Assembly (NCBI RefSeq): GCF_010389155.1
Contig: NC_057766.1
Span: forward strand, 744,001 to 808,000
Direction of reading: 5' to 3'
DNA: 64,000 nucleotides
Origin: Erigeron canadensis
Taxonomy: Eukaryota; Streptophyta; Magnoliopsida; Asterales; Asteraceae
Below the pieces are notes generated by a model, which had not been told where the DNA came from, did no database searches, and saw nothing but the letters and a program-made list of their open reading frames with translations. Numbering within the stretch: the stretch's first letter is position 1; every line of letters begins with the position of its first letter. The position numbers and the translations under genes are program-made. This document shows positions 15,819-64,000 of this stretch, one piece after another.

Positions 15819-16626
15819 TTTTAGAACGGTAATATTAAAATAAAAGGTCACCAGCAAATACTAGAGAGCCCAAAAATACAAGAGTACAAATAAATTACAA
15901 ATATAAGCCTCAAAGAACACGACAAAACTACGGAACAAAAAGAGGGCAATTAAGCCATTCAACCCAAGAAATTCGTTTCTTTTTGCATCTACACGAATAC
16001 CACATATAAGACTGGGTAAAAATGAGATCAAACAGGAACTCTTTGCGATTCATCCCGTTGTTGAAAACCTCTTCGTTTCTATATTTCCATATCGACCACC
16101 ATACACAATATATTATAGCCTCAATAATATCTTTCTTATCCTTGGATACATGCATGTCATCGATATAAATGATGATATGAGTAGGCCCTTGCAAAGGAAT
16201 AGGCGCAATTTGGAGCCATTTAGTAACTAAACTCCATAATCTTGAAGCAACCGCACATTGTCCAAAAATATGATTGCAAGTTTCTATAGAGTTTCCACAT
16301 AATGGACAAAGAGAAGATGGAATATCCACCCCTTTATTAACCAAATTAATACGGGTGGGAATTCTATTTATGAGGATTCTCCATACAAGAACATTGACCT
16401 TGCGAGGTACCAACTTACTCCATCTAGTCACTCCGTGAATATTAGTCACTAAAGTCTCATCAATCGCATCACAAATGCCTTTCACAGTAAACTCTTTCAT
16501 GCTTTGATTAGAAAATACCCATTTATCTACATCATCATTAAGAACAGTAGTAGATACCAAATATGTAAGCTGAACCAACTCGCTAGCTTCTACCCCACCT
16601 CGAACTTGTCTTCTCCAGTTAGGAAC
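15819..16626 (-). mobile_element. 5'-truncated LINE (non-LTR retrotransposon)
   Basis: The insertion carries only the 3' end of a LINE: a coding tail, about 85 bases of 3' UTR (15843-15927) and a short A-tail, which reads as T-run at 15815-15822 on the + strand. Both sides share (TA)n followed by TTTTCTTTT (ending near 15818 on the left; 16629-16649 on the right). This is a target duplication of about 20 bases, as target-primed reverse transcription leaves. The break on the 5' side at about 16626 is inside the coding region, the usual result of incomplete reverse transcription. Confidence 0.75.
15928..16626 (-). pseudogene. LINE reverse transcriptase C-terminus (zf-RVT)
   Basis: This is the C-terminal piece of a non-LTR retrotransposon polyprotein. 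The open frame has an internal Met at 16578 and extends upstream without a stop to the truncation (NWRRQVRGGVEASELVQL). It holds the reverse-transcriptase zinc-binding domain: KWVFSNQSMKEFTVKG, then WSKLVPRKVNVLVWRILINR, then LCPLCGN...CNHIFGQC with the Cys-Cys-His-Cys set, then VWWSIWKYRNEEVFNN and finally ISWVEWLNCPLFVP before the stop. Endonuclease and polymerase domains are missing, so it cannot move itself. The remaining frame has no stop or shift, which points to a fairly recent insertion. Confidence 0.85.
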
Positions 16627-16649
16627 TATATATATATATATTTTCTTTT

Positions 16650-27347: not shown

Positions 27348-30300
27348 ATGGGTTGCTTTTCTTGCTTCAATTCCCACTCTCATAATAATGTTGATAATTG
27401 TGGTGATGCTGCTGCTCTGGACTCCAATCACACCCCCTCAGGTTTATTTAAATTTTTTGTTTTTTTTTGAAAAAATAAATAAATGAATTTATTTTTCATG
27501 ATTTTTATGCATTATTGTGTGAATGTAGGTCATGGAAAGAAAAGAAGATACAAGGATGTTACTGGTAAGGTTTATCGAATATTTTCGAGATTGCAAAAAC
27601 TTATTAGAAATAATATTAATTTATAATGTAGTTTTAAAGTAGGAGTCTTTTTTGTATATATGTTTGGTGTGTAGATGGGAAAGGGGTGGATAGTATGAAA
27701 GGAAAAGGGATGGCATTGAGTGGTCAGAGAGCAAATGTGGCACGAAGCTTTACGTTTCGCGAGCTAGCCGCATCCACACAGAATTTCCGCGTTGCGAATT
27801 TGATTGGTGAAGGCGGATTCGGAAGCGTTTACAAGGGCCGCTTGGATTCTGGCAAGGTATTTTGCTTAAAGTTTGTTTTTTTAGCTATAGATGGGAATAA
27901 GTATCTTGAACTGTTGATGTGTGTGATGAAATGTGACTTCAACATTAAAATCAAACTTACTAATTATGTAACGATATGATAGTTAGTTCCGCAATGCTAG
28001 AGATAATTCGCCAATGTAACTTCTACTTCAAGAGTTAATTTCCTATGGTTATTTCTTGTTTGATTCTCCAAATTTGCTAAGATCATAATCCGTTGAGTAA
28101 CACTTAGGATTGGTTCTCAGCTTTAATGCACTCGAGGTTTCTAAATTTACATATATCTTGACATTTGGTTTACTTATACCATCTTCTTAACGGCTTGTCA
28201 CCGTAGATAATCATAAAGCATAATTATAATCACTTTTATCTCAACAAGCGAAATACATACATAGCCTTGTAATGCATAAAGCGAACTTTGCTTTCAACAT
28301 TTACTAAAAAAACAAGACAAATCTATTATCTTGTTAAACGTACATCCAAAAAATCCTTATGCACTTTAGGCGATTAAATATTGAGTGGTGGTTGCGGTGT
28401 CTTATGTTTGTATAAGCATTTGTTTCATATGTTTGTTTCCCTTATATTGTGGCATTGATAATGATAATGTAGTTTTATGAACAGTTAGTGGCTGTAAAAA
28501 AGCTCAACTTGAATGGACTTCAAGGGAACCAAGAATTTATTATGGAGGTTCTTATGTTGAGTCTACTTCGCCATTCAAACCTTGTCACATTGACTGGTTA
28601 CTGCACAGACGGAGACCAGAGGCTCCTGATATACGAGTACATGCCTCGGGGAAGCCTGGAAAGTCATCTTTTTGGTACGTTTTAATTCATTGCATTCTTT
28701 GATCACTTTCTTTAGCGAGGAATGAGTTTTAATGAGAAGACTATATGATGCATGGATATCTAGACACTGGTTGTCTCTGACATCAAGTTTCTAGGCTGTT
28801 GTGTTTTTTTAAAGTTCAAAAGTCTTGTCTTGTGTCCATGTGCATACCTGATGAGCTCATAGGTTTGTTCCATTTTTATGTTAATCTTGTAATATTAATA
28901 GAAGAGATAGAAACCTGAACAAGGAAATATTTTACTTTATTTTAGATGACATGTATTGGATGTATCCTTTTCTAATTTACTATATTTTTGTTTTCATGGT
29001 ATAGATCATTTTTGGGATAGGTAAAAAACTAATAATGTCCTAGGAAGAAAGTGAGAGTATCATCGATGGGCCAACTTGGTTTAATAAATTATATTCACAT
29101 GCACTTCTATACACCGGCTCTGCTTTAAGTTAAGAACAGAATACTAACATCTCTGTGTACGTGATCACCGAAGGTCTTAATTATGGGCTGCAAAACAGGG
29201 GTCGGTAGTAATGACTCAATTATAAGCTAGGTGGCTGTAAGCCTATAAGGACACAATCTTAAACAATGTGACCCACTTCCTGAGTAGCAGTGTTTTAAAT
29301 TTACCGTTTGAATCGCTATAAGTCTGACGCGTTTCCTTGGTGTGAGGTCTCCCATGCCATCGGTCAATTTTCAGACTTACTATTGTCTAGTTAAGAATTT
29401 CTTTACAGTACAATATTTTTGTTTCATTTGGTATCAAGCAAGTCTCATGGTAAACTTAACTGAATGCATACCTGTTTTCAGATCTAACTCCTCATCAGGA
29501 GCCATTGGATTGGCACACCAGACTAAAGATTGCGGTTGGTGCAGCTCGTGGTCTTGAGTATCTTCATTGCAAAGCAAATCCACCAGTAATTTATCGTGAT
29601 TTAAAATCATCGAACATATTGCTAGATAATGAATTCAATCCAAAACTTTCAGACTTTGGGCTTGCTAAATTGGGTCCTGTTGGTGATAACACCCATGTGT
29701 CTACTCGAGTTATGGGTACCTATGGTTACTGTGCACCTGATTATGCAATGAGTGGTAAACTTACAATAAAGTCAGATATATACAGCTTTGGTGTTGTCTT
29801 GCTGGAGCTGATTACTGGGCGCAAAGTAATCGACATGACCAAAAAATCCGGAGAACAAAATTTAGTTTCGTGGGTAAGTTATTGGTTGATTTTCTCTTGT
29901 TTTGGAATGTTTTTATTTCTTTAATTATAATGAGCACATGAGGCAAAATTTGATGGGGACTGATCAATTGGCCAAACCAGACTTAGGTGAATGCTGAACA
30001 CAGTTTAAGTTTTGTTGTTGACTTACTCGTCAGTAGAGGTTGGGCCGTCGGGGTAGGTCAACCCATTATCGTTTTCCTTTTCTTAAATTATTTGAAGTTC
30101 ACAAATATATGGATATATATAATCGGAAATGGGTTAACATGGGTTCCATTATATCTCAAGTAGTTTAAATTAACTGATATAGCTTACACAATGACGTCAA
30201 ACAGGTCACATACTCACATGGGTCAAACTGTGTGGTGATCCAAAGTCTAATTTCTATACATACAATCTCTTAAACTACTTTGTGCTTTGACTGAATATAT

Positions 30301-34271: not shown

Positions 34272-34329
34272 CTATAATGTTTTTTTTAAGCGCCTGATGA
34301 CCCGACCAGTTTTTTAGTAAAATGACCAT

Positions 34330-34360
34330 ACTTTTTGCAGCGAGGGTCGCTGCAAAAAGT
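34330..34360. repeat. Perfect 31-bp hairpin, left terminus
   Basis: Arms of 14 bases (ACTTTTTGCAGCGA and its exact complement) around GGG. It lies 58 bases inside the left end. Related copies lie at 42239, 42341, 42795 and 42887 near the other end. Confidence 0.9.
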
Positions 34361-34382
34361 CAGTGTACGAAACCGTACACTG
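34361..34382. repeat. Second hairpin, adjacent
   Basis: CAGTGTACG, AAAC loop, CGTACACTG, directly after the first hairpin. A third, looser one follows (CTGTGG...CCACAG at 34379-34400). All three lie upstream of the transposase TATA box. Confidence 0.75.
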
Positions 34383-34415
34383 TGGACCATCAAGACCACA
34401 GTTTACGGTTAAGTT

Positions 34416-34428
34416 CTATAAATATAAA
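34416..34428 (+). promoter_or_regulatory. TATA box of the transposase gene
   Basis: CTATAAATATAAA lies about 55 bases after the terminal hairpins and about 200 bases before the transposase ATG, so the left terminus probably works as the promoter, as in MuDR. The leader that follows has repeated TCTATCTTTCATT words (34448-34622). Confidence 0.55.
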
Positions 34429-34627
34429 CTTCATTTTCATTGTCTCTTAAAGTGATATCTTTCTTTCTATCTTTCATTGTATAAATATAAATTTTCTTTA
34501 GTTACTACTATCTATCTTAAAGCGTACGCGTTTTGAAGTGTTATTATTATTTCAAAAACTTTAGTATTATTATTACTATCTATCTTAAAGCGTTTCTATC
34601 TATCTTTCATTCTATCTTTCATCCAAG

Positions 34628-37600
34628 ATGGATTTTGAAAGTATATGGGGCGAAATGGGTGCGGAAGGTTTTGAGCTTCACTTAGAAGAACCTGATGAAA
34701 AATTTGACATACCAGAGGCGACCCCTCATTTTGACTACGACGCTAGGGTTTTCCACACCGATCAGGTATCCTTGTTAACTTTAAAAAAAACTAATTTAGG
34801 CAAATATCATTATTAGTTTATATTTTAGTAGTATTTAATTTGTGTTTTTTTGTTAAATTTATTGCATATTTAAAATGTTAGATATTTATTAGTATACAAA
34901 TTAATGATAAATTTTTAAAAAAAAACTAATTTAGGCAAATAACATTAGAATATTTATATTTTAGTACTATTTGATTTGTGTTAGGATGTTAAATTTATTG
35001 CAATGTTAAAATATTAGATATTTATTAGTATACAAACTAATGATAATTTTTATAAAAAAAACTAATCTACGCAAATATCATTAAAATATTCATATTTTAG
35101 TACTATTTCATTTGTGTTAGGATGTTAAATTTATTGCATATTTAAAATGTTAGGTATTTATTAGTATACAAATTAATGATAATTTGTTAAAAAAAACTAA
35201 TTTAGGCAAATATCATAAAAATATTTATATTTTAGTACTATTTAGTTTGTGTTTCGTTGTTATATTTATTGCATATTTTAAAATGTTAGATATTGCATAT
35301 TTAAAATGTTAGATATTTATTAGTATACAAATTAATGATAATTTGTTAAAAAAAAACTAATTTAGGCAAATATCATAAAAATATTTATATTTTAGTACTA
35401 TTTAATTTGTGTTTCGTTGTTATATTTATTACATATTTTAAAATGTTAGATATTGCATATTTAAAATGTTAGATATTGCATATTTAAAATGTTAGATATT
35501 TATTAGTATATAAATTAATGATAATTTGTTAAAAAAAATTAATGATATTGCATATTTAAAATGTTAGATATTGCACAAGGAAAATATTATCAAATGACTT
35601 TAATACCCCTAATCTTATTTTTACTAAACCCACTATTACTTGTAAATTTTTACCGCAATTTTGTATAAATATATTGCTCAAGGACTAATAATACATCTTA
35701 AGGTGTTCGATTCACACGAAGAATTGTTCAACTGGACCAAAAGTACAGGATTGCAGCTTGGTTATGTGTTAATCAAACGACGAACAAATTCCAACTTAGC
35801 TGGTGTAAGAAATAAAGTGACGATAGTCTGTAATCTTTCTAGGAAAATGAATGATAGGATAAGCGGCCTCGTTAAAAAGACACTTAAGTGTCAGTGCCCC
35901 TTTAGATTAATCGGTCGTTTCACTGATGATGGTTGGAGGATAACCGTTGTAGACGACACACATAATCACTATCCAGCAGAGAATCTGGAGGGTTACGCGT
36001 ACGCAAGAAGGTTGACTGAAGAGGAGAGATTATTTCTGGAAGAAGAATATCATCGTGGTAGTACGCCCCGTAGGATGTTAAAGCTATTGAAAGAAAAATT
36101 TCCAGGAAACTTGACCCGCAGTGATGACATTTACAATCTCCAAAAAGCTATGCGGAAGAAGGCGGCCGAAAAACATGGGAACACTCCAATGCAGGTATAT
36201 CATATCAAATTTACATATCTTTTTATTTATTTACTATGATAGAGTATCTGAAACGAAATATGTACGCCATATTGTTCAAACGAAACAGGTTATGTTCAGT
36301 TTGCTTAAAGAGCATAATTACTTGTATTATCATACAACAAACAGTGTATCTGGTCGGTTGGAGAATCTGTTTTTTATACATCCGACAGCATTTAAATTGT
36401 GGCGTGCATTTCCTTATGTTATCCAAATAGACGCCACGTACAAAACGAATATGTACAACATGCCATTGGTCGAGATCGTTGGTGTCACTCCAACAAACAG
36501 GACCTTTAGCATATCATATGCGTTTATCATAAGCGAACAAGAGCATAATTATAGATGAGTGTTGGAGTGTTTGAAGTCGACGTTAGGTGAAGGCTTTGCT
36601 GTGCGTGTCGTACTCACGGACCGGGATCTGGCGCTAATGAAAGCATGCAAAACCGTTATGCCTGAAGCATACCGTTTACTGTGTAGAGTGCACATATGGA
36701 GGAACATAGACAAATTTAGCATGCCATCGTTAAAAGGGGAAGGGAAATGGGGGCCTTTTTACGGATGGTGGAAAAAACTTTACGAGTCCCGCACACTAGA
36801 AGAGTACACCAACAATTTATCATATTTAAAAGAGAAGATGGGTCCCCGTTTAGACAGTAAGTGAAGTGCTTTTGAAGTTTTTTTTTTCCTAATTTTTGGT
36901 AAATCACATATACCCACACAAGCTAATCACATGTTAAATTGACAGAGGTTTACAAGTACCTGCAGAAGGAGTGGCTTTCCCCGTACAAGGAAAAGTTTGT
37001 GTCCTTTTGGGTGGATCAGCACATCAACTACCGTAATTACACTACCAACAAAGTTGAGGCTGAGCATTCACTCCTCAAGTCCGAGTTACAGGGGAGATGT
37101 ACATTTCAACGAATAATTCAGTGTGTTAATGATGTCCTCCTCGGACAAGATACAGAAATCAAGGGCCAACTGGAAGAAAGCAGGATTTATAGAGCTGGTA
37201 AACACAACTACCTATGTTTGAAAGACTTGCTTTGTGTTGTATCTGTGACAGCTCTTGATATAATGGTCGATGAAATAAAACGATTAAAAAATGAGATCGG
37301 AAAAGACTTGAGAAAATGCGGGTGTAAGGTGTGGACTAGTTGTGACCTTCCATGTGCCTGCCGTCTAGCTGCGTACATGCATTGCAGTAAGTTTATTGAA
37401 ATATAAGCAATTGCTTTTTTTTATTTGCTAAATGCACAAATATTGTAATTATTTTTCGTCAAAAATGTAGACAAACGTGTTGAGGTGCATACCATAAATG
37501 ACTTTTGGAGAAAGCTAGACCTGACACTGTCGACATGCCTTCCGGACAACGATCATCGAAAAGACTCTGACGATGACGAAGCTATCGACCAATTAGTAGA

Positions 37601-39293
37601 GGATGTTAAAGTCCAGTTTAAGGATCAACCGAAGTCAAATCGCAAAAACTGGATTTCTAAATTAAAAGACATCGTCTATCCGGGGAGAACGAAAATCAAG
37701 GACCTGTCTGTTATTAAAAATAAACGTGGAAGACCAATCGGGTCAAAGAAAAATATACCTCAAGTATGTCGGATCATAATTCGAACTACATTTAATTAAT
37801 TGAAAATTTTTTTGGAAGTTTTGGTAATTGCCCCCTATTTGTTAGTATACTTGTAAGTGTAATCTGTTATTAAAATTTTTTTTTTTTTGCAGGCGCCCGA
37901 ACAAAACAGACCAGCGACAAACACAGCACCCTCGGGTCTTCAAAAATCCAGGTGGGTTCAATTCTCTGATCAATTTTCGCAGCCGTCATGTGCATTTGGA
38001 GAAGGCCAATATGCGAGACACAGTGAATACGTGAGCACCCAATCACGTTTTTTTGAAGAAAGGGAAAGTCAACCACAATCACTTGAAAGTCGTAGATAGA
38101 GTGATTATGTGGGCACCGGTTCATTTTTCGCGGAAACACCATCACGTTTCTACAATGAAAATGAAAGCCAAGCACAATCACCTGAAAGTCGGAGACAGAG
38201 TGATTATGTGGGCATCAGTTCTGTTTTCGCGGAAACACCATCACGTTTCTTCAATGAAACTGAAAGCCAGCCCGAATGGGGTCAGATTGGGAGACAAAGT
38301 AATTATGTGGGCCTATCAATGAACGTGCCAGACAATGTAGACGAACCATATAACAAAGTATTATGGGGTCAAAGTGGTAGGCAAAGTGGGTATGTGGGTT
38401 ATGAGTTTAACATCCCGGGAAATACAAATTCCTTTGGCGAACCTTATAACAAACTATACTAGGGACAAAGTGGCAGACATAGTTCGTATGTGGGTAGCGA
38501 TTCACGTTTCGCAGACACACAAAGTTATTTCGGAGACCAGAATAACCAAACGCAAGAAGAAACATATAGCTTTGTTGATCAATTATTCTCGACACCCATT
38601 ACACAGAATACACAAAATCCCCAGAACAACCCTGAACCGTTTACACACAACTTTTTCCTGAGTGAGTCAACATCGTTTGACATGAGTCATTACCTAGGCC
38701 AGCTCCCTAAGTTCTTTCAAAGATACGTTGTCAATATAAAAAATGTACAGTCTGATGGTAACTGTGGGTTTCGGGCACTGGCTGTTGCTTTGGGTGAAAA
38801 CGAGCAAAAATTCGAGTGGATTCGCAAACTAATGCTAGAGGAGTATGAGTCCAGGCGCGGATACTATGAGGGTGCATTCGCTGGTGACGCTAAACACATA
38901 CACACTTTGCTATCAATGTCTTATCCGAATGGTCGCCCACATGATTACTGGATGATGAATCCATATTGCGCTATGCTTCTGTCTAATGCGTTGGGGGTAA
39001 TAATTATCTGTTTAAGTTTAGAGGAGAACATCACATGTTTTCCTTTTTGGAAGGGGCCAAGCGAGCTATACGTAGATGACCCGATATGCATTGCCCTGGT
39101 ATCGGGGTCGACACATTTTGTTACAGTTGTTTTAGATAAGGACTGCCCAATGCCTTACACCTCAGCTTGGGGACATGATAAACCTGCATCGCAGGCCTGG
39201 GCAACACATCCGAAGTACAGAGACCGTTTGGCTGAGTACCACAGACACGTTCAAGCTAATAAGGCACCTACGGGATATAAGATCCTTGAATAG
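34628..39293 (+). pseudogene. FAR1/MULE transposase fused to OTU protease, with stops
   Basis: Six exons (34628-34765, 35703-36194, 36289-36856, 36946-37386, 37471-37763, 37893-39293) join in phase into 1110 codons. Residues 47-210 hold a FAR1/GCM1-type zinc finger (LKCQCPFRLIGRF, VVDDTHNHYP). Residues 211-550 are the MULE transposase core: QIDATYKTNMY (Asp258), VLTDRDLALMKA (Asp321), LLCRVHIWRN, then a SWIM-like CGCKVW...LPCACRL and HTINDFWRKLDLT. NKRGRPIGSKK is AT-hook-like. Exon 6 starts with about five GRQSxYVG repeats and ends in an OTU cysteine-protease domain: SDGNCGFRALAVALG (Asp932, Cys935) and STHFVTVVLD (His1052). OTU enzymes remove ubiquitin; here that role is inferred. Only three in-frame stops (36556 TGA, 38097 TAG, 38460 TAG) break the frame; there is no frameshift, so death is recent. 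Confidence 0.85.
34790..35560 (+). repeat. Tandem repeats in transposase intron 1
   Basis: About five copies of an AT-rich unit of roughly 135 bases. It is recognised by GTTAGATATTTATTAGTATA, then AAAAACTAATTTAGGCAAAT, then TATTTTAGTACTATTT. A shorter sub-repeat, GATATTGCATATTTAAAATGTTA, is multiplied near 35290 and 35455-35500. It fills most of the 937-base intron. Confidence 0.8.
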
Positions 39294-39654
39294 TTTATTT
39301 ATATCGTATAATTGTTTGTTTGTAACTCTTTAACGTATGTAATAATAGTTATTATAAGTACTAGATATCGTTGATGTATTTTTTTACTTATATTTGTTAT
39401 AATGATTACTAATAATAGTTGACGTATTCTATAGCTATCTTTGATGTTTTTGTTTTTATAAGTACTAGATATCGTTGACGTATTCTATTACTAATAATAG
39501 TTGACGTATTTATTTATATAGATTAGGCATATTTTTTTTACGTTTTTTTCGTTTGTTATGACCATCATCACCAGCACATCCGAAAAGATAAACACATATT
39601 CACCATAAACATAATTGATACGATAAAAAATATATTGTTTATAACCAAAAAATA
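39294..39654. other. Gap between the convergent MULE genes
   Basis: An AT-rich stretch with the words TAGATATCGTTGACGTATT and ACTAATAATAGTTGACGTAT repeated three or four times (39359-39510). It probably holds both 3' UTRs and poly(A) sites. No coding sequence is seen. Confidence 0.45.
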
Positions 39655-41011
39655 CTAATCATGAGCTTCATCGCTCTCATCATCATCATCATCGTCATCT
39701 AAATTGACATGATGCGATCCGCCTGAGTATTGAGGGGCTGTGGGCAACTGCTGGGACGGCTGAGGAGGAAAAGGAGCCTGTGCATAACTAGAATAGTTAA
39801 ATAATTCATCAAATAAGGAGGACGTCTGGCTAGGCTGAGGTGGGTCATTGTTCAAGTCGAATGATGCACGTGGCTGTCCCTGGGTAAGATGCGTATAGTC
39901 ATACGCCTCGGTACCCATCTGCCTGATGACCCGCCCTATGCCTCGACGATGCCTCGCCCGGGGTCCCCGTACATCCATGACAATGTCAGGATCTGGTGTT
40001 GGAACGAGGTCCTGTTCAGCCTCCTCCTTCTTCTTCTTGAGCTGAGACTGTAAAAAACATTACATTATACATAAGGTTGATTAATTAACATTTAATACTA
40101 AAAAATATAAAATCCTACAGAGAGACACATACATGTATTTCTTCAGCCATCGGGTGTTCCCATTGTTTATCCTTCTTCTTCTTGTGCTTAATCTCGAACA
40201 AATCCACCAAGTCCACGTCCTTGTTTTTTTCAACCTGTAAACACATCAATTTATCATAGACATATACATTCTTTAATTTATACTTTTAAACACAATTATA
40301 TATATTTAATACACATATAATTCATAACTAACCTTCTCCTGGTGGACGTACTGAGAGTAAGACTTACGACCATGGGTCCCCGCAAGAACTTGCTTGCCCC
40401 TGTTCGTGCTGTTTCTCGCCGACTGCTTCACCCGGTCCAACCTCTAGTAATATCCCAACAAAGCTCTCCAGTCCTCCTGTGACATACCCTCTGGAGGAAC
40501 AGCCTGTTCCAACTGGGGAACTACATCCAGGCCCCCCTTTTTGGAAAAGTGGGCTCTCTTGAACTGGCTCTTCCGGAGCCGATACTGATCGGAGCAGTCC
40601 CTATCAACACACAGCCTAAACCCCCGCCTGATAGGATCCTCGGGGTTAGGAATCTGAATAAAGTGGTCCAATTTGAACCGAGTCTGCAATTTATAAAAGT
40701 AAAAGTTAGCGAAATTAAAAATTGATACAAACATCAAAGAAGAAGTTAAAAATGAATAATATTTTACGTTCAGAGTCGGGATGATAAAATCCTTTCTCTC
40801 AGCAGGCACATGGTCCCAGGAGTCGTATGTCTGAGGGATGTGGCGGACCAAGGTGCCAATGAGGCTCTTATACATAGAAGAATTTGGGCCGATCGCCTAC
40901 CACGTTTTTAAGTTGCTTGTGTCGAAGTCGATGGACATGCGGCCCTTTTTCGCGAACTCGGCCTCCAGATTTAAATTTTGACATGGCCCCCTCCCCTTTC
41001 CCTTTCGTGGG
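39655..41011 (-). pseudogene. Transposase_24 (Ptta/En/Spm) type accessory protein
   Basis: On the minus strand four exons fit in phase: 41011-40768, 40683-40333, 40234-40133 and 40047-39655, about 360 codons. The translation matches the plant Transposase_24 family (PF03004): RGPCQNLNLEAEFAKKGRMS, IGPNSSMYKSLIGTLVRHIP, DSWDHVPAERKD, EGMSQEDWRALLGYY, RVKQSARNSTNRGKQVLAGT, HGRKSYSQYVH, and a Lys-rich tail before a low-complexity DLNNDPPQPSQ...DDDDDDDESDEAHD end. TAG codons at 40897-40899 (after LKTW) and 40444-40446 (after LLGYY) break it. An upstream exon is likely at about 41238-41151 (MATYHGGDGGNEDPHRP), but its frame does not join cleanly. The family's biochemical role is unknown to me; its position recalls mudrB. 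Confidence 0.75.
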
Positions 41012-41239
41012 CTAGCAAAAATTAAAAAAACAAGTTAGTAAAAAAAATATTAAATTAAAATATGAATAATAAAGAACCAAATTCTAAAAAGACAATTTAG
41101 TAAAAAATATTAAATTAAAATATGAATTATAAAAAAACCAAATTCCTTACCGCCGCTGCCTTTGCAGCCTCATGTAATCTTCCACCATGGTCGATGTGGG
41201 TCTTCATTGCCGCCATCACCGCCATGGTAAGTCGCCATC

Positions 41240-42218
41240 TATACTGCAAAATACAAATCATATTATACGTTTTTTGCAAAATACAAATCATATAACAAAA
41301 TTATCACAAATTTAATTACTTTTATATATATCTTTTTTACTTGATAATAATTTTTAGAACTCCGTTTATAGAATATAAATTTACTTTTATACTTTTAAAT
41401 TTAACTTTATAGTAATTTTTAATACGTCTAAGGTAGTTTATTTAATCAAAATTTTTAATTCAAATTTTTAAATAATTTTGTATATTTAGTTCAATACATA
41501 TATTTTTAACATAATCTTGGCTATTTATTTTAATCAATTTTTTAACAAATTTTAATCTACGTCATTATTATTTTGTCAATATTCTAACCAAAAAGTAAAA
41601 CACCTAACACTAATGACTAAAATATTCTAACAAATCAATATATTAACTTTTTAACTTAATTGTTTATACTTTTGAACTTAATTTTTATAATTAATTTTTA
41701 TGTATATTTTTCTTGAACTAAATTTTATTACGTCTTAAGTAGTTTATTTAATCAAAATTTTTACATAATCTTGCCTATTTATTTTAATCAATTTTTTAAC
41801 AAATTCTAATCTTCTTAATTTTGCATTTAAAGATATATATTCTAACAAATCACTAACAAAACAAATTCGTGGCTCCTAACAAATCACTAAATTATCAATA
41901 AATCAAAACTAACTATACTAACAAACCTATTAAAATCCTATAAAAAACTAATAATCCTAACAAAACTAACAAAACTAATAAATATACAAAAACTATACTA
42001 ACATACCAATATTCTAACAAAACTAACAAAACTAATAAATATACAAAAACTATACTAACATACCAATATTCTAACAAAACTAACTAATTAACAAAACTAA
42101 CAAAACTAATAATAACATACCAATATACTAACAAACCTATTAAAATCCTATAAACAACTAATAATTCTAACAAATTAATAAAACTGATATATGTACAAAA
42201 ACTATACTAACATACCAT
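41240..42218. other. AT-rich MULE interior, tandem words
   Basis: No coding sequence is visible. From 41840 to 42200 the words CTAACAAAACTAACAAAACT and ATATACAAAAACTATACTAA recur many times. It is probably the upstream region and leader of the minus-strand gene. Confidence 0.5.
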
Positions 42219-42425
42219 GGAGGCCCGAATTTTTTCACTTTTTGCAGCGAGGGTCGCTGCAAAAATTAGTAATGGTGTAGATGCTAAAAATAATGGTTTG
42301 GATATTGAGAAAAACATAAAATAGGCCTGAATTTTTTCACTTTTTGCAGCGAGGGTTGCTGCAAAAATTAGTAATGGTCTAGATACTAAAAAATAATGGT
42401 TTGGATATTGGGAAAAGCATAAAAT
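42219..42425. repeat. Tandem pair, each with a GCAGCGA hairpin
   Basis: Two copies of a unit of about 103 bases, each with TTTTTTCACTTTTTGCAGCG, the hairpin (42239-42265; 42341-42367, where one stem base is changed) and AAAAATTAGTAATGG. The open frame read through it on the minus strand (42207-42683) repeats LLIFAATLAAKSEKI as a result and is not convincing as a protein. Confidence 0.8.
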
Positions 42426-42469
42426 ACATACCACAATTTGAAATGGCTTGAAAATTTGGGGGAAGACGA

Positions 42470-42700
42470 CCGACCGGAATTTGGGGGAGGATAATCCCGA
42501 CACTGGCGGTACTGCGGTGGCGATGGACGGCGGCAGCGGCTGGCGGTAGTGCACGGTGGTGGCTGGCGGTGGACGGTGGTGGCTGGCGGCGGTAATGCAA
42601 TAGATGGTGGAGGAAGAGAAGGCTGGCGGTACTGCACGGTGGTGGCTGGCGGTCGACGGTGGTGGCTGGCGGCGGTACTGCAATAGATGGGTGGAGGAAG
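42470..42700. repeat. GGTGGTGGCTGGCGG low-complexity block
   Basis: A GC-rich block of imperfect 12-15-base units. It gives Pro-rich open frames in all minus-strand frames, which is why I do not call a gene. It lies inside the right end of the MULE. Confidence 0.6.
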
Positions 42701-42794
42701 AAAAAGTGTTATATTTTGAAGGGTGGAGGAAGTGTAATCTGAAAATGATGGAATAGATGATGGGTGGATCGGTTTTTAAAAAGGCGTCGGGTTA

Positions 42795-42825
42795 ACTTAT
42801 TGCAGCGACCCTCGCTGCAATAAGT
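42795..42825. repeat. Perfect 31-bp hairpin, right terminus
   Basis: Arms of 14 bases (ACTTATTGCAGCGA and its complement) around CCC. Compared with the left-end copy, T became A in one arm and A became T in the other, so the stem stays perfect. The CCC loop is the complement of GGG, as expected for an inverted end. Confidence 0.9.
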
Positions 42826-42886
42826 GGAGTAACGGTCGGGTCAAACATTTAAAGCGGTGAGTGAAAAGCTGACGTGGCGAGGGTTA

Positions 42887-42907
42887 TTGCAGCGACCCTC
42901 GCTGCAA
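42887..42907. repeat. Outermost hairpin of the right terminus
   Basis: TTGCAGCGA, CCC, TCGCTGCAA, 61 bases inside the right end. This is nearly the same distance as the left copy's 58. Confidence 0.9.
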
Positions 42908-42968
42908 AATGTGCCTGGTCAAATTACTAAAAATGGTGGTCGAGATACGGGGCGCGTTTTTTTAATCT

Positions 42969-57407: not shown

Positions 57408-60400
57408 TCATGCATCAAACAACAATCTTTTGCTATTTGCATGAATATCTTCATGTAAGCAGAGTTGAAGTATCTTACGATATCGACTTTCTTCATGCTT
57501 CCAAAATGGCAAGAACGAACACTCTGTATCGTATAACTTCCTCAGATCATTTCTTGAGAAGTTCACCAACTGCATCGGATCATATACTCTTCTCAACAAA
57601 ATCTTCTTCTTTGAGTCTGCATACATCTTTGCTTCACCAAAATTTCGATCAATTTCCTAATTATCCATCTTGTCCAAGACATCTTGTGCCCATTTCTTGG
57701 CAGGGACTTTGATCATACACTTAATATCATGTTGAACATACTCAACTGTTTTATCTGGCTTGACCACTCTTTTCTTTGATCTTGGTTCAATCTTAAACTG
57801 TGGTTTATCTGAATCTTTCATGTTCTTTCTCAACCAGAAATCATTTCGAAGATTCTTACCAACAATATCAGCTAAACCATCATCACTTGGATTGATAATC
57901 CAATTATTTCCAAGTTCATGTAAATCTTCTTCACACAAACTCCTGAAATGTCTCTCACACCAGGCTAAGTACTGACAACCTTCTAGTCTTTTAAGAACAA
58001 ACAACTTCAGTTCATCATCATAAAACCAACTCCAGATGATTGTCTTGTACTTTGCAGCATCTTTGTCTGAGATATGAGTCCAATACAAATTTGGTTTCCA
58101 CGTTTCCCTATGTACTATCCATTCATTAACTCCTCTCTCGGGAACATGTCGATCAACCATATGTAATGAATCATCATCTCTGAGAGGAACTGGAAAATCA
58201 TTTGGATTGAATGGTCTTGTCACGTTAATCTCATAATCAGACGGAATCAATGCATCACCATTCTTAGCATACACAACAAAATGTAAGACTTGAGTTTGGC
58301 TACTGAATGGAACTTGGAAGCATTCTTTCCCGAACATCTGATCTCTTCTGATCCAACACTCTACTCTCTTCAATCGATGGATCTTCAGGAATTGAGTCCC
58401 ATACTTCATCAAACCCATAAGGCTTCTTGAATATGTTTAGATTTGGTTCAGGAACAAATTCACCTTCCTCGAGCTCATCACCATCAAAGAATAAATCTGT
58501 ATAATCTGGATCATCTATTCAAAATTTACATAAAATGAACACCAGAATACAAAGAATAATCATGATAATTACAATAAAGATAAAATGTAATTGTATTGAA
58601 ATAAGATAGATTACATTTACATGTCATAACTTATTACATACAATCGAATATACATTCTATCTACAAATTTTTATCATAATCAAAATCAGAAACATCAGAA
58701 ACCTGAATCACGAGGAGCACCAGAAGGACCAGCACCAACATCAGAAGTATCACCTCCTGTCTCCCCCTCGATCTCTGCACCCTTTCCTTTATCTTCAACT
58801 GGGCGAGAATCATTCCTATCACCAGCATCACCTCTTGTCTCCCCCTCGATCTCTGCACCCTTTCCTTTATCTTCAACTGGGCGAGAATCATTCCTATCAC
58901 CAACATTATCAACATCATCATCATCATTCTGACGTCTTGGTTGAACCGCTGACAATCTGCAAACCTCTTCAGGAACTTCTCCCCCTTGATTCTTGACCCA
59001 GTTGATCAAAAAAGTCAAGGCGGCTCGAGTATCGGTGAGATCAGACTCCAAAGTACGAACTCTAGTCTCCAGAAGATCAACACGACGAACAATCGAAGAA
59101 TCTGAAGGAAGTCGGTAAGATAAGGAGGGAGCTACCAGAGGACGTAAGACTTGTGCTTGTGAAACAACAGGAACAACAGCAGCAGTTGGTCTTGGAGGAT
59201 CAGGAAATGCTACAGAAGAAGCTTCAACAACACGTCTACGCTTATTTCTGGTATACTGAAGTTCAACATCCCCTTTCCGTTTCACCGGACTAACCGAACT
59301 GGCTCTGTTCACCGGATCTTCCATATCTTCAAAAATCCCACGCAGTTCAGAATCATGCTGAGCAGCAACATCAGGATCAATCTGAGCAGCATCACGAATG
59401 GAGTTAGCTGAATCTGAAACAGCTGGAACAGCATGACAAGCCTTACTTCTACGCTCTCGATGGAACGCAACACCTTCTTGATCAAACGACTGATGCGAAT
59501 GATCACTTTCAGAAGCAGCCGAGATATCATGAATCAACTTAGTTCGACGTTCAGCAGCAGCAGATTCATCGGTGTCTGTCTCATTCGTAGCAGCGAAACC
59601 GTCGGAACTATCAACTTCACCTCCATCATTTCCATCATCCGAACCATCAGACTCATCCCTTGAATCATCACCAGAACCATCAACAGAACTTTCTGAATCA
59701 TCAGAAGCAGAATCTTCATCATCATCATCTACAAACATATCATTCTCAAGACGAGATCGATAGTTTGGATTAATCAAGTGACCAAAAAGTGGTGGATCAT
59801 GAAGACCAGCCACATTACTTGTATTGGCTTCAAGATCAGCAAAAAGACGCGAAGGCCAAGCATGAAAAACGTAGTGAGGACCTTGGTCATATACTAAGTT
59901 AGGACAAAAGTGTCTAACTGTGGCCATAACAAACCGAGGATACAAAAGAAATCTCTTTCTCCCCCTAGCATTAAGCTGATCAATAAACTCCTGATAAAAG
60001 TATCTTGAGAAAGGATAAGGTCGATTATATACCAATGCAACCATCTGTGACGCAATCTGAGCAGACAGTTGATCAAAACCAGCCTTGCGATTTCTCAAGC
60101 ATACGAGCAATGCATACGCCAGATATCTCCATCTTCCCTGAAAACCACTCTTGTCAAAAGGAAGTTTGACCTGACCGAAAAATCCCATTCTCTGAAAACA
60201 TCGAAGAAGTTCAAACTCATAAGTCATCTCTACGTCTTCTTCTTCTGCTACTTCCGGTTCTGCTCCTAGATGCAAAATAGTACGAAGCGATTCAGCGTTG
60301 AAATCAAATGTGATTCCTTCAACAGTAGCACGTACAAAACTCTGTCCATCAACCATGACTTCATGAGCAGTTGACCAAAAAGAATCGATATACTGCCTGA

Positions 60401-60551
60401 CAAGTCTAGGCGAATCACAAAAAGCAAAAAATAATCTCGAGCGAGCAATGTAGTTAAACATTTCATGAAAATGGTCGCTATTATGCTGATCTGGATCAAG
60501 ATTCAGTGCAAGACTATGTTTCTTCACAAACTGACGAGGAGCTAGAGCCAT
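57408..60551 (-). pseudogene. Copia extra ORF (env position), spliced, broken
   Basis: Two exons. The first runs 60551-58703 (start chosen as MALAPRQFVKK because the Met further upstream lies beyond a TTTTGCAG splice site); the second runs 58514-57408, joined across a 188-base GT-AG intron so that RDS continues DDPDYTDLFFDG. The N-terminal 260 residues (LVRQYIDSFWSTAHEVMVDG, GRWRYLAYALLVCLRN, RKRFLLYPRFVMATVRHFC) match the extra ORF found behind RNase H in many Asteraceae copia elements; function unknown. An acidic Asp/Ser stretch and a tandem pair of 26-aa repeats (NDSRPVEDKGKGAEIEGET) follow. Exon 2 has WSWFYDDELKLFVLKRLEG and FWKHEESRYRK. A frameshift near 58375 and a TAG at 57657-57659 break it. 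Confidence 0.65.
58750..58910 (-). repeat. Two 78-bp coding repeats
   Basis: In-frame tandem copies encoding GDRNDSRPVEDKGKGAEIEG. They are nearly identical at the DNA level, so the copy arose recently. Confidence 0.85.
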
Positions 60552-60562
60552 TTCTGCAAAAC

Positions 60563-61562
60563 AAAGCAACCTGTTCATGCCGTTAAGGTGAATTCATAAA
60601 GTATAAACTGTACGAAAATACTCTTTAAATTCGTTAAGTATACAGGGACGAAAATAGAATCTAAATTCGTAAGCTATAACGGAACGAAGATAAATCCTAA
60701 ATTCGTAAGAACTAATCTGAAATTTTCACCTAACGAAGTCTAAATTCGTAAGGTCTAAACTGGACATACAAGTTCGTAAGTTATAACTTATATTCTAAGT
60801 TCGTAACTTATAAACGAAGTCTAAGTTCGTTTGAACACAAACTAAGTTCGTAAGATAAGTTCGTTCCTTATCAACTAAATTATAAGTTCGTAAGGCATAA
60901 GTGAAAGTTAACTTCGTTTCCACCCAATTAACTTCGTTCGAACTAAAAGCTAAGTTCATGGTCACAAATCTAAATTCGTTTGAACTAATCTCTAAGTTCG
61001 TTTGCACAAGTCTAACTTCGTTTGGATAAACCAGTTAATGATTTCAAGAATATATATATATATATAATCAAAACGAATCAAATCGAAGAGACATAGAAAA
61101 CCTAGATCATTTTCGTGAATGAAAAGAAGATCAAACACTTACTTAGATGACAATTTGCAAAACGAATCAAGAAAACGAAGTAGATAGAGAGAAAAGAAAA
61201 GAGTTTGGGTTTTAGGGTTTTGCTCGAAAATAAGAATAATTTTCGTTTTGTGAAGAAGAAACGAAGAAAAACCCCTTTATATAGTGAAGTAAAAATGGGA
61301 TAACTATGGGTCGGGCTAAACTTTACAAACGAAGTTATCCAAACGAAGATAGCCTTCGTTTGGACAGAATAATTTCGAACTATCAAAACGAAGATAACAG
61401 TTATCTTCGTAAGAACAAATCAAAGTCAGAAAATATTCCAGATTTCAGCTAAGTTTTTGAAAATTATTCCAGATTTTCATCAAAGCGATCTTCCAAGACA
61501 CGACCCTTCAGCGCAATTTGTACATAGCAAAAACTCGTTAGAAAGCAACCTGTTCATGCCGT
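60563..61562 (-). promoter_or_regulatory. Internal promoter, leader and ACGAA array
   Basis: On the minus strand: AACGAAG/CTTCGTT inverted pairs (61318-61410), a TATA box CTATATAAAG (61275-61284), then a leader and about 20 copies of TTCGT/ACGAA-containing words such as AAATTCGTAAG (60610-61025), ending at a splice-acceptor-like TTTTGCAG before the ORF. A 21-base direct repeat containing AAGCAACCTGTTCATGCCG marks both edges (60563-60583 and 61542-61562). Together these suggest a separate promoter and a 5' UTR intron for the extra ORF. Confidence 0.5.
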
Positions 61563-63013: not shown

Positions 63014-64000
63014 CTACTCGGCATTCTTCATACCATTGAGTTGATATAACAACTCAAGAAGAGGTCCATCAAAAGCTTTAGTGTATAGATCAGCAAGATT
63101 ATCATCAGTGATAACCTTTTCTAAATGAATAAGCTTTTTCTCAAAACAGTCACGTATGAAATGATACTTTATATCTATGTGCTTGGTGACTTTAAAGTTT
63201 TTCGGATTCTTGGTAATATATATGACAGACTTATTATCAATACAAATAGGAGTATTTGAGATATTCATACCATAATCGCGCAATTGTTGTTGTATCCAAA
63301 GCACCTGAGAACAGCAATATCCAGCAGCAATGTACTCTGCTTCACAGGAAGACTGTGCAACCGATGTCTGCTTTTTGCACTGCCATGATATAATTCTCCC
63401 CCCTAAAAGCTGACATCCACCTGACGTTGATTTCCTATCCGAATTGTCACCACCATAATCCGAATCAGTGTAAGCTACGAAGTCAAAAGAACCATACATG
63501 GGATACCAAAGACCTAGACGAGGCTTGGCTTTCACATAACGAAAAATCCTTTTCGCAGCTTTCAAGTGAGACTCTTTCGGATTAGCCTGATATCTAGCAC
63601 ACATAGAAACAACAAAGGTAATATCTGGACGTGAGGCTGTCAGATACATCAAGGATCCAATGATAGCTCGATATTGAGTGGCATCGACGTATGGATCATT
63701 AGGCTTATCAGGACACAACCCATGATTAGTCTTAATGGGAGTAACAGCATCCTTAGCATCAGACATTCGAAACCTAGTAAGAAGATCTTTGACATACTTG
63801 GTCTGATGTATAAAGAACCCATCCTTCAGTCGATCCACCTGTAGTCCAAGGAAGAAGGTTAATTCCCCCATAGCACTCATCTCAAACTTAGCCTTCATGC
63901 TCTGTTCAAATTCCTTGCACATTTTATCATCAGATGAACCAAAAATGATGTCATCGACGTAAACCTTTACAAACAAGTAGTCCTTCCCTTTCCATTTAAT
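63014..64000 (-). CDS. Copia reverse transcriptase/RNase H, partial
   Basis: The frame is open past the right edge of the window (IKWKGKDYLFVKVYVDDIIF) and stops at 63014. It contains the end of the reverse transcriptase with the catalytic YVDD, FEMSAMGELTFFLGLQV, and GSLMYLTASRPDITF, then RNase H: YTDSDYGGDNSDRKSTSGGC, SSCEAEYIAAGYC, and CIDNKSVIYITKNP...TKHIDIKYHFIRD. These residues copy the RNA genome and remove RNA during replication of a Ty1/copia element. No stop or shift is present in the visible 329 codons. Gag, protease and integrase should lie to the right. With the extra ORF, polypurine tract and LTR to the left it makes the 3' half of one element, of a SIRE/Maximus-like layout (inferred). 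Confidence 0.9.
   Translation of the reverse strand: MKWKGKDYLFVKVYVDDIIFGSSDDKMCKEFEQSMKAKFEMSAMGELTFFLGLQVDRLKDGFFIHQTKYVKDLLTRFRMSDAKDAVTPIKTNHGLCPDKPNDPYVDATQYRAIIGSLMYLTASRPDITFVVSMCARYQANPKESHLKAAKRIFRYVKAKPRLGLWYPMYGSFDFVAYTDSDYGGDNSDRKSTSGGCQLLGGRIISWQCKKQTSVAQSSCEAEYIAAGYCCSQVLWIQQQLRDYGMNISNTPICIDNKSVIYITKNPKNFKVTKHIDIKYHFIRDCFEKKLIHLEKVITDDNLADLYTKAFDGPLLELLYQLNGMKNAE

Follow-up and report, generated by a model that had tools for sequence, protein, structure and literature searches.

Transposons with no relation to one another have repeatedly come to carry proteases of the ubiquitin and SUMO systems, with Ulp1 domains in Mutator-like elements (MULEs) and CACTA elements, ovarian tumour (OTU) domains in Ginger1 and Helitrons, and VTD domains in Helitrons. 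Here we describe a decayed MULE of Erigeron canadensis in which an OTU-type domain forms the C-terminal part of the transposase reading frame itself. The element lies in a 64,000-nucleotide stretch of genomic DNA (NCBI RefSeq assembly GCF_010389155.1, contig NC_057766.1, positions 744,001 to 808,000, forward strand), which has a G+C content of 33% and is hereafter called the window; all coordinates are those of the window. Papers are cited by PMC number.

Among the described systems, the hydra MULE MuDR-6_HM, which Dupeyron 2019 places in group 14, has a row in Table 1 of PMC6446971 with one open reading frame and with 'Ovarian Tumour Gene' under other motifs; its host is a cnidarian. Ginger1 carries a C-terminal OTU cysteine protease domain on its transposase (PMC2836005), but that transposase is of the Gypsy-integrase type, the hosts are animals and some members carry Ulp1 instead. 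The E. canadensis gene does not belong to Ginger1, as the Pfam list of its translation contains MULE and Transposase_mut and no integrase. Kaonashi elements with their KIU genes, VANDAL elements and other Ulp1-carrying plant MULEs likewise encode a protease of the ubiquitin or SUMO systems. In Kaonashi, however, the protease is Ulp1 and is encoded in reverse orientation to mudrA (PMC2528002), whereas here it is of OTU type, fused and on the same strand; no Ulp1 family appears in the Pfam lists of the fused gene or of the second gene of the element (PF03004), and the C-terminal domain has an OTU fold. Helentrons and Helitrons with OTU or VTD domains are also DNA transposons that encode a deubiquitinase-type domain, but they are rolling-circle elements with RepHel and no DDE transposase (PMC9741609, PMC6431247).

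The original prediction, a model's reading of the letters of the window alone, knew of no described element of this kind. That nothing similar is described is not supported, given the C-terminal OTU domain of Ginger1 and the OTU domains that the same paper notes in Helitrons (PMC2836005), and of the MULE group with 'Ovarian Tumour Gene' (PMC6446971); we regard the plant MULE-OTU fusion as a little-described version of an idea already known, not as wholly new. The fusion is not named in the titles or abstract openings of the open-licence PMC papers that we found, and the words 'OTU' and 'protease' are absent from the main text of a survey of 18,744 FAR1 genes (PMC8599713). Gene models labelled 'Ovarian tumor otubain' are given for a soybean bacterial artificial chromosome in Table 3 of PMC2613891. 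Our look-up of 'OTU' and 'ovarian' covered the main text of PMC6446971, PMC8599713, PMC13359780, PMC2528002, PMC13317346, PMC8647823, PMC11943222, PMC5148889 and PMC2613891.

The fused gene consists of the following plus-strand parts.

34628-34765, plus strand: exon 1 of the transposase-OTU gene, bounded by GT/AG and in phase
35703-36194, plus strand: exon 2, encoding the N-terminal FAR1/AFT-type finger (C..CxC..HxH) and a linker
36289-36856, plus strand: exon 3, MULE core PF10551 (residues 254-349), with a premature stop at 36556-36558
36946-37386, plus strand: exon 4, remaining transposase core with NKVEAEH and CxC..CxC, which we take to be SWIM-like
37471-37763, plus strand: exon 5, basic KRGRPIGSKK, presumably AT-hook-like
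37893-39293, plus strand: exon 6, repeat-rich linker with stops at 38097-38099 and 38460-38462, followed by the OTU domain
38676-39290, plus strand: OTU-fold cysteine protease-like domain (profile, AlphaFold model, structure comparison, invariant residues)

As predicted, the six exons join in phase into a single reading, with GT at every donor and AG at every acceptor; the spliced length is 3333 nt, or 1110 codons and a stop. When the coding sequence was shuffled 500 times, the shuffled versions contained a mean of 71 stops and a minimum of 47, so the near-open frame of the window copy is far beyond chance. Intron 1 is largely made of tandem repeats with 136-bp and shorter units (34783-35575, plus strand), and the linker between transposase and OTU domain contains an in-frame tandem unit of 99 bp in 2.1-2.5 copies (38064-38312).

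In a Pfam scan of the joined reading, the transposase part matched the MULE family PF10551, as had been anticipated, with an E value of 2.3e-20 (73.3 bits against a cut-off of 27.6), and further matches were to PF21056 (E 1.2e-11) and Transposase_mut, PF00872 (E 2.3e-7). Candidate DDE motifs are IDATYK at residue 257, TDRD at residue 319 and NKVE at residue 434, within IDATYKT, LTDRDLA and NKVEAEH; we take them to be the DDE set of a MULE transposase. Among seven aligned relatives from the protein searches described below, the first motif is absent in P0001, a truncated model, and in P0006, and the third is absent in P0008. Further along, the reading continues with CGC..CAC, presumably the SWIM-like motif, and then with the basic KRGRPIGSKK. 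In the alignment, the N-terminal C..CxC..HxH pattern has counterparts in P0002, P0005 and P0006 and a partial one in P0003; the finger region is incomplete in P0001, P0004 and P0008. PF08731 gave no match in the joined reading and scored above its cut-off in P0002, P0003 and P0005; PF03101 did so only in P0002 (29.3 bits against 28.1), with P0003 and P0005 below.

The identity of the OTU domain is supported by a family profile, by its fold and by relatives. The profile matches OTU chains in the PDB. An AlphaFold model of the domain reached a pLDDT of 83.2 and a pTM of 0.82, and Foldseek and VIA-align 2 support the OTU fold, the best structural match being VCPIP1, a chain of a cryo-EM structure with p97. 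Asp932, Cys935 and His1052 stand where they had been predicted, within VQSDGNCG and GSTHFVTV, and the Cys and His are invariant across the nine OTU sequences of alignment A3, which omits P0002 (divergent and without the His motif), P0007 (ending before that motif) and P0006. Alignments A1 and A2 leave out P0002 and P0007 and include P0006; P0014-P0017 are in no alignment. A chance motif is ruled out as the source of the OTU signal, since fold, family profile and relatives agree. The domain may act as a deubiquitinase, which would cleave ubiquitin from a target considered below.

Ten proteins matched when the whole reading served as the query, eight of which (P0001-P0008) have DGNCG downstream of a MULE part and thus share the two-part architecture of the window gene; P0009, an unnamed protein, and P0010, from the fungus Purpureocillium, have no OTU motif. 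The eight fusions come from several plant families (E. canadensis, Glycine soja, Glycine max, Centaurea solstitialis, Gossypium darwinii and Bienertia sinuspersici), and six of them contain the His motif. The MULE match of P0007, at 24.8 bits, falls short of the Pfam cut-off of 27.6. The closest relative, P0001 of E. canadensis, is 49% identical in the MULE part and 43% in the OTU part, and its model begins inside the MULE domain; it was the sole match to a query made of the OTU part of the joined reading. Neither the names nor the precomputed Pfam entries listed for the relatives, whose records are predictions, mention OTU. Pairwise identities in the MULE part correlate with those in the OTU part over eight sequences (r 0.87; Mantel test with 9,999 permutations, p 0.0002), a set that includes soybean near-duplicates, takes the second half of P0002 and omits P0007, and they also do so across six non-redundant sequences (r 0.67, reached in 1 of 720 permutations). 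This correlation fits joint descent of the two parts.

Of the eight proteins found in a second search with a C-terminal alignment, seven were new. P0011 (411 aa) is a transposase tail with OTU. P0012 (204 aa, E. canadensis) and P0013 (216 aa, from a 1,178-base contig) are OTU-only; in P0012 the Cys motif is altered, and this protein, which begins at a Met inside the window reading, is 92% identical to that reading over the OTU domain. P0014, also from E. canadensis, is a transposase fragment without the OTU motif, 96% identical over 15% of the query, and together P0012 and P0014 look like further copies of the element. P0015 and P0016, both from Tanacetum, have the Cys motif and lack the His motif. 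A protein of the fungus Racocetra fulgida, P0017 (search E 2.7e-4, MULE E 8.5e-20), carries DGNCGFRALA just before the record ends. Shortly before its cut end the record reads SDGNCGFRALAIAI, and the His motif is absent from the part preserved. We treat P0017 as no more than a lead, which may point to a MULE-OTU fusion in a fungus of the arbuscular mycorrhizal kind. The original prediction held that intact relatives with a separate OTU gene would refute it. OTU-only proteins do exist, in P0012 and P0013, yet both may be fragments, and a separate OTU gene is disfavoured though not settled. Together, sequence, fold and relatives support a MULE transposase with a C-terminal OTU domain, in agreement with the claim that the OTU domain is fused to the transposase itself.

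Several observations weigh against the explanation that we place first below. The joined reading contains three premature stops, TGA at 36556-36558 (codon 300), TAG at 38097-38099 (codon 713) and TAG at 38460-38462 (codon 834), and the window copy is therefore unable to yield the fused protein; the original prediction, which joined the exons into one protein, did not mention them. After the last of these stops a 276-codon frame that holds the OTU domain remains open (38463-39290). Of the expected domain families, PF03101 has no match in the joined reading, in which the predicted FAR1-type finger is a Cys/His pattern aligned with relatives. PF02338, expected for the OTU domain, has no match either, and it missed this domain in every protein scanned, the relatives included; the nearest OTU-type match, Peptidase_C65/otubain (PF10275), was always below cut-off, with E 0.037 in the joined reading and 0.013 to 0.037 across scans. 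Below the OTU chains, the list of profile matches also contains unrelated chains, such as PfEMP1 (0.042) and a rhoptry protein (0.29). The acid of the catalytic triad is uncertain, as Asp932 is part of the DGNC motif and no acidic residue directly follows His1052. Two of the eight plant fusions, P0002 and P0007, have no His motif, and PMC9741609 states that the OTU domains of transposons had no tests of catalysis. Finally, the second gene of the element, described next, has an in-frame stop at 40444-40446 and encodes no whole protein now.

The element extends from 34290 to 42955 (8,666 bases) and exceeds the stretch originally singled out (34628-39293). Its remaining features are as follows.

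34290-34358, plus strand: left terminal inverted repeat, about 69 bp, starting GCGCC
34335-34355, no strand assigned: left copy of the hairpin motif TTGCAGCGA(GGG/CCC)T(C/T)GCTGCAA
39658-40896, minus strand: convergent second gene, PF03004 (Transposase_24, Ptta/En/Spm), put together by eye from exon pieces
42884-42955, minus strand: right terminal inverted repeat, ending GGCGC

The ends were located by blastn of the flanks and by pattern search, while a repeat search with a 25-base minimum gave no inverted repeats. The left end and the reverse complement of the right end are identical in 56 of 69 ungapped columns, and among 127,896 placements in the window the outer 40 bases match only themselves and the right end. 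The flanks, GTTTTTTTTAA on the left and GTTTTTTTAA on the right, form a candidate target-site duplication of 10-11 bp, where a MULE would be expected to leave one of 8-11 bp; the candidate is weak because the flanks are of low complexity and differ by one T. One copy of the hairpin motif, TTGCAGCGA-(GGG/CCC)-TCGCTGCAA, lies close to the left end and four lie close to the right (42242, 42344, 42800 and 42887), with a single change in one of the copies. A plus-strand scan of the window found these five copies, all within the element, and a two-strand scan allowing up to 3 mismatches gave seven matches at the same five places, against none in 100 shuffles. The motif is a candidate binding site for the transposase.

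The second gene, on the minus strand, lies in the interval that separates the OTU exon from the right end and converges on the fused gene, an arrangement that is also that of mudrA and mudrB in MuDR. Its splice sites were assigned by visual inspection. Once the pieces were joined and the stop was replaced by X, the sequence matched PF03004 with an E value of 1.2e-13; single open reading frames alone gave matches below the Pfam cut-off. From the inverted ends, the fused gene and the PF03004 gene appear to belong to one element. Membership in the CACTA superfamily, hinted at by PF03004, is rejected: ends of that superfamily start CACTA, whereas the ends found here start GCGCC, and the transposase is that of a MULE. 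PF03004 has been reported from the CACTA element En-1 (PMC2613891), and its pairing with a MULE may be unusual.

Elsewhere in the window, a protein kinase exon (29460-29921, plus strand; PF00069, E 9.3e-25) belongs to what is probably a host gene, upstream of the element, and a frame at 27638-27976 with no Pfam match may belong to the same gene. A zf-RVT fragment (15931-16647, minus strand; PF13966, E 1.6e-15) is presumably of the type found in LINE-like reverse transcriptase genes. A Copia-type reverse transcriptase (63017-64000, minus strand; RVT_2, E 9.5e-17) extends to the window end, and a 632-codon open frame with an acidic, repeat-bearing tail (58698-60593, minus strand) has a weak match to Transposase_32 (E 0.25).

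The explanation we place first, with our confidence evenly divided for and against it, is that the locus is a decayed 8.67-kb MULE with a convergent PF03004 gene, and that its transposase, with a FAR1-type finger, MULE core and SWIM-like motif, was joined through a linker to an OTU deubiquitinase-like domain acting in cis. In intact relatives, the OTU domain would be brought to the transposase and its complex as part of the same chain. It could there remove ubiquitin from the transposase, and perhaps also from its partners, and the transposase might thus be spared proteasomal removal long enough for cutting and insertion. We put protection of the transposase first because the fusion sets the enzyme on the transposase, and because a like role has been suggested for the VTD deubiquitinases of Helitrons, which may shield transposition proteins from the proteasome (PMC9741609).

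The strongest rival, which we consider distinctly less probable, is that the OTU domain acts on chromatin: tethered by the transposase to the element ends or insertion sites, it would strip ubiquitin from histones and lift silencing or open sites, in an anti-silencing role like that of VANC in VANDAL elements. The fused FAR1-type and SWIM-like motifs and the basic stretch could bring the domain to DNA, and a review describes VANC and the Ulp1-carrying KIU genes of Arabidopsis MULEs as inducers of hypomethylation of related elements (PMC13317346). VANC and KIU are, however, separate genes, whereas the OTU domain is here inside the transposase, and the convergent PF03004 gene would be a better candidate for a separate helper. 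It is improbable, to our mind, that the domain instead acts at the cut site, taking ubiquitin off repair factors and so aiding repair or strand transfer. Such a role has been proposed for the OTU and Ulp1 domains that Ginger1 carries (PMC2836005), and VCPIP1 is the best structural match, but the case is one of analogy, and a structural match shows no substrate.

We give still less credence to the OTU domain being a passenger, a captured fragment of a host gene that is useless to the element. MULEs tend to pick up fragments of host genes (PMC6446971), and a quarter of the plant fusions have no His motif; a recent capture is nevertheless disfavoured, because the fusion is widespread (in proteins of Asteraceae, soybean, cotton and Bienertia), all nine aligned sequences keep the Cys and His, and divergence of the OTU part tracks that of the MULE part. 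That the locus is a domesticated FAR1-RELATED SEQUENCE host gene and no transposon is highly unlikely, since the database names of relatives, which include FAR1-RELATED SEQUENCE 5 and 10, are outweighed by the inverted ends with their candidate target-site duplication, the second gene that converges on the first, the stops, and the close, defective-looking E. canadensis records P0012 and P0014.

Returning to a deubiquitinase that acts in cis on its own transposase, we tentatively entertain a broader proposal: the window copy may represent an old, widespread MULE lineage of several flowering-plant families, with a possible member in a mycorrhizal fungus, whose in-transposase deubiquitinase and PF03004 helper would counter host attempts to remove or silence it by way of ubiquitin. 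If this is true, some genes named FAR1-RELATED SEQUENCE 5 would be unrecognised transposase-deubiquitinases. As PF02338 missed the OTU domain in all the proteins scanned, lists of FAR1/FRS genes may contain such fusions. A plant family with a deubiquitinase-like domain inside a MULE transposase, some of whose relatives may be expressible, would allow a direct test of what use such proteases are to transposons.

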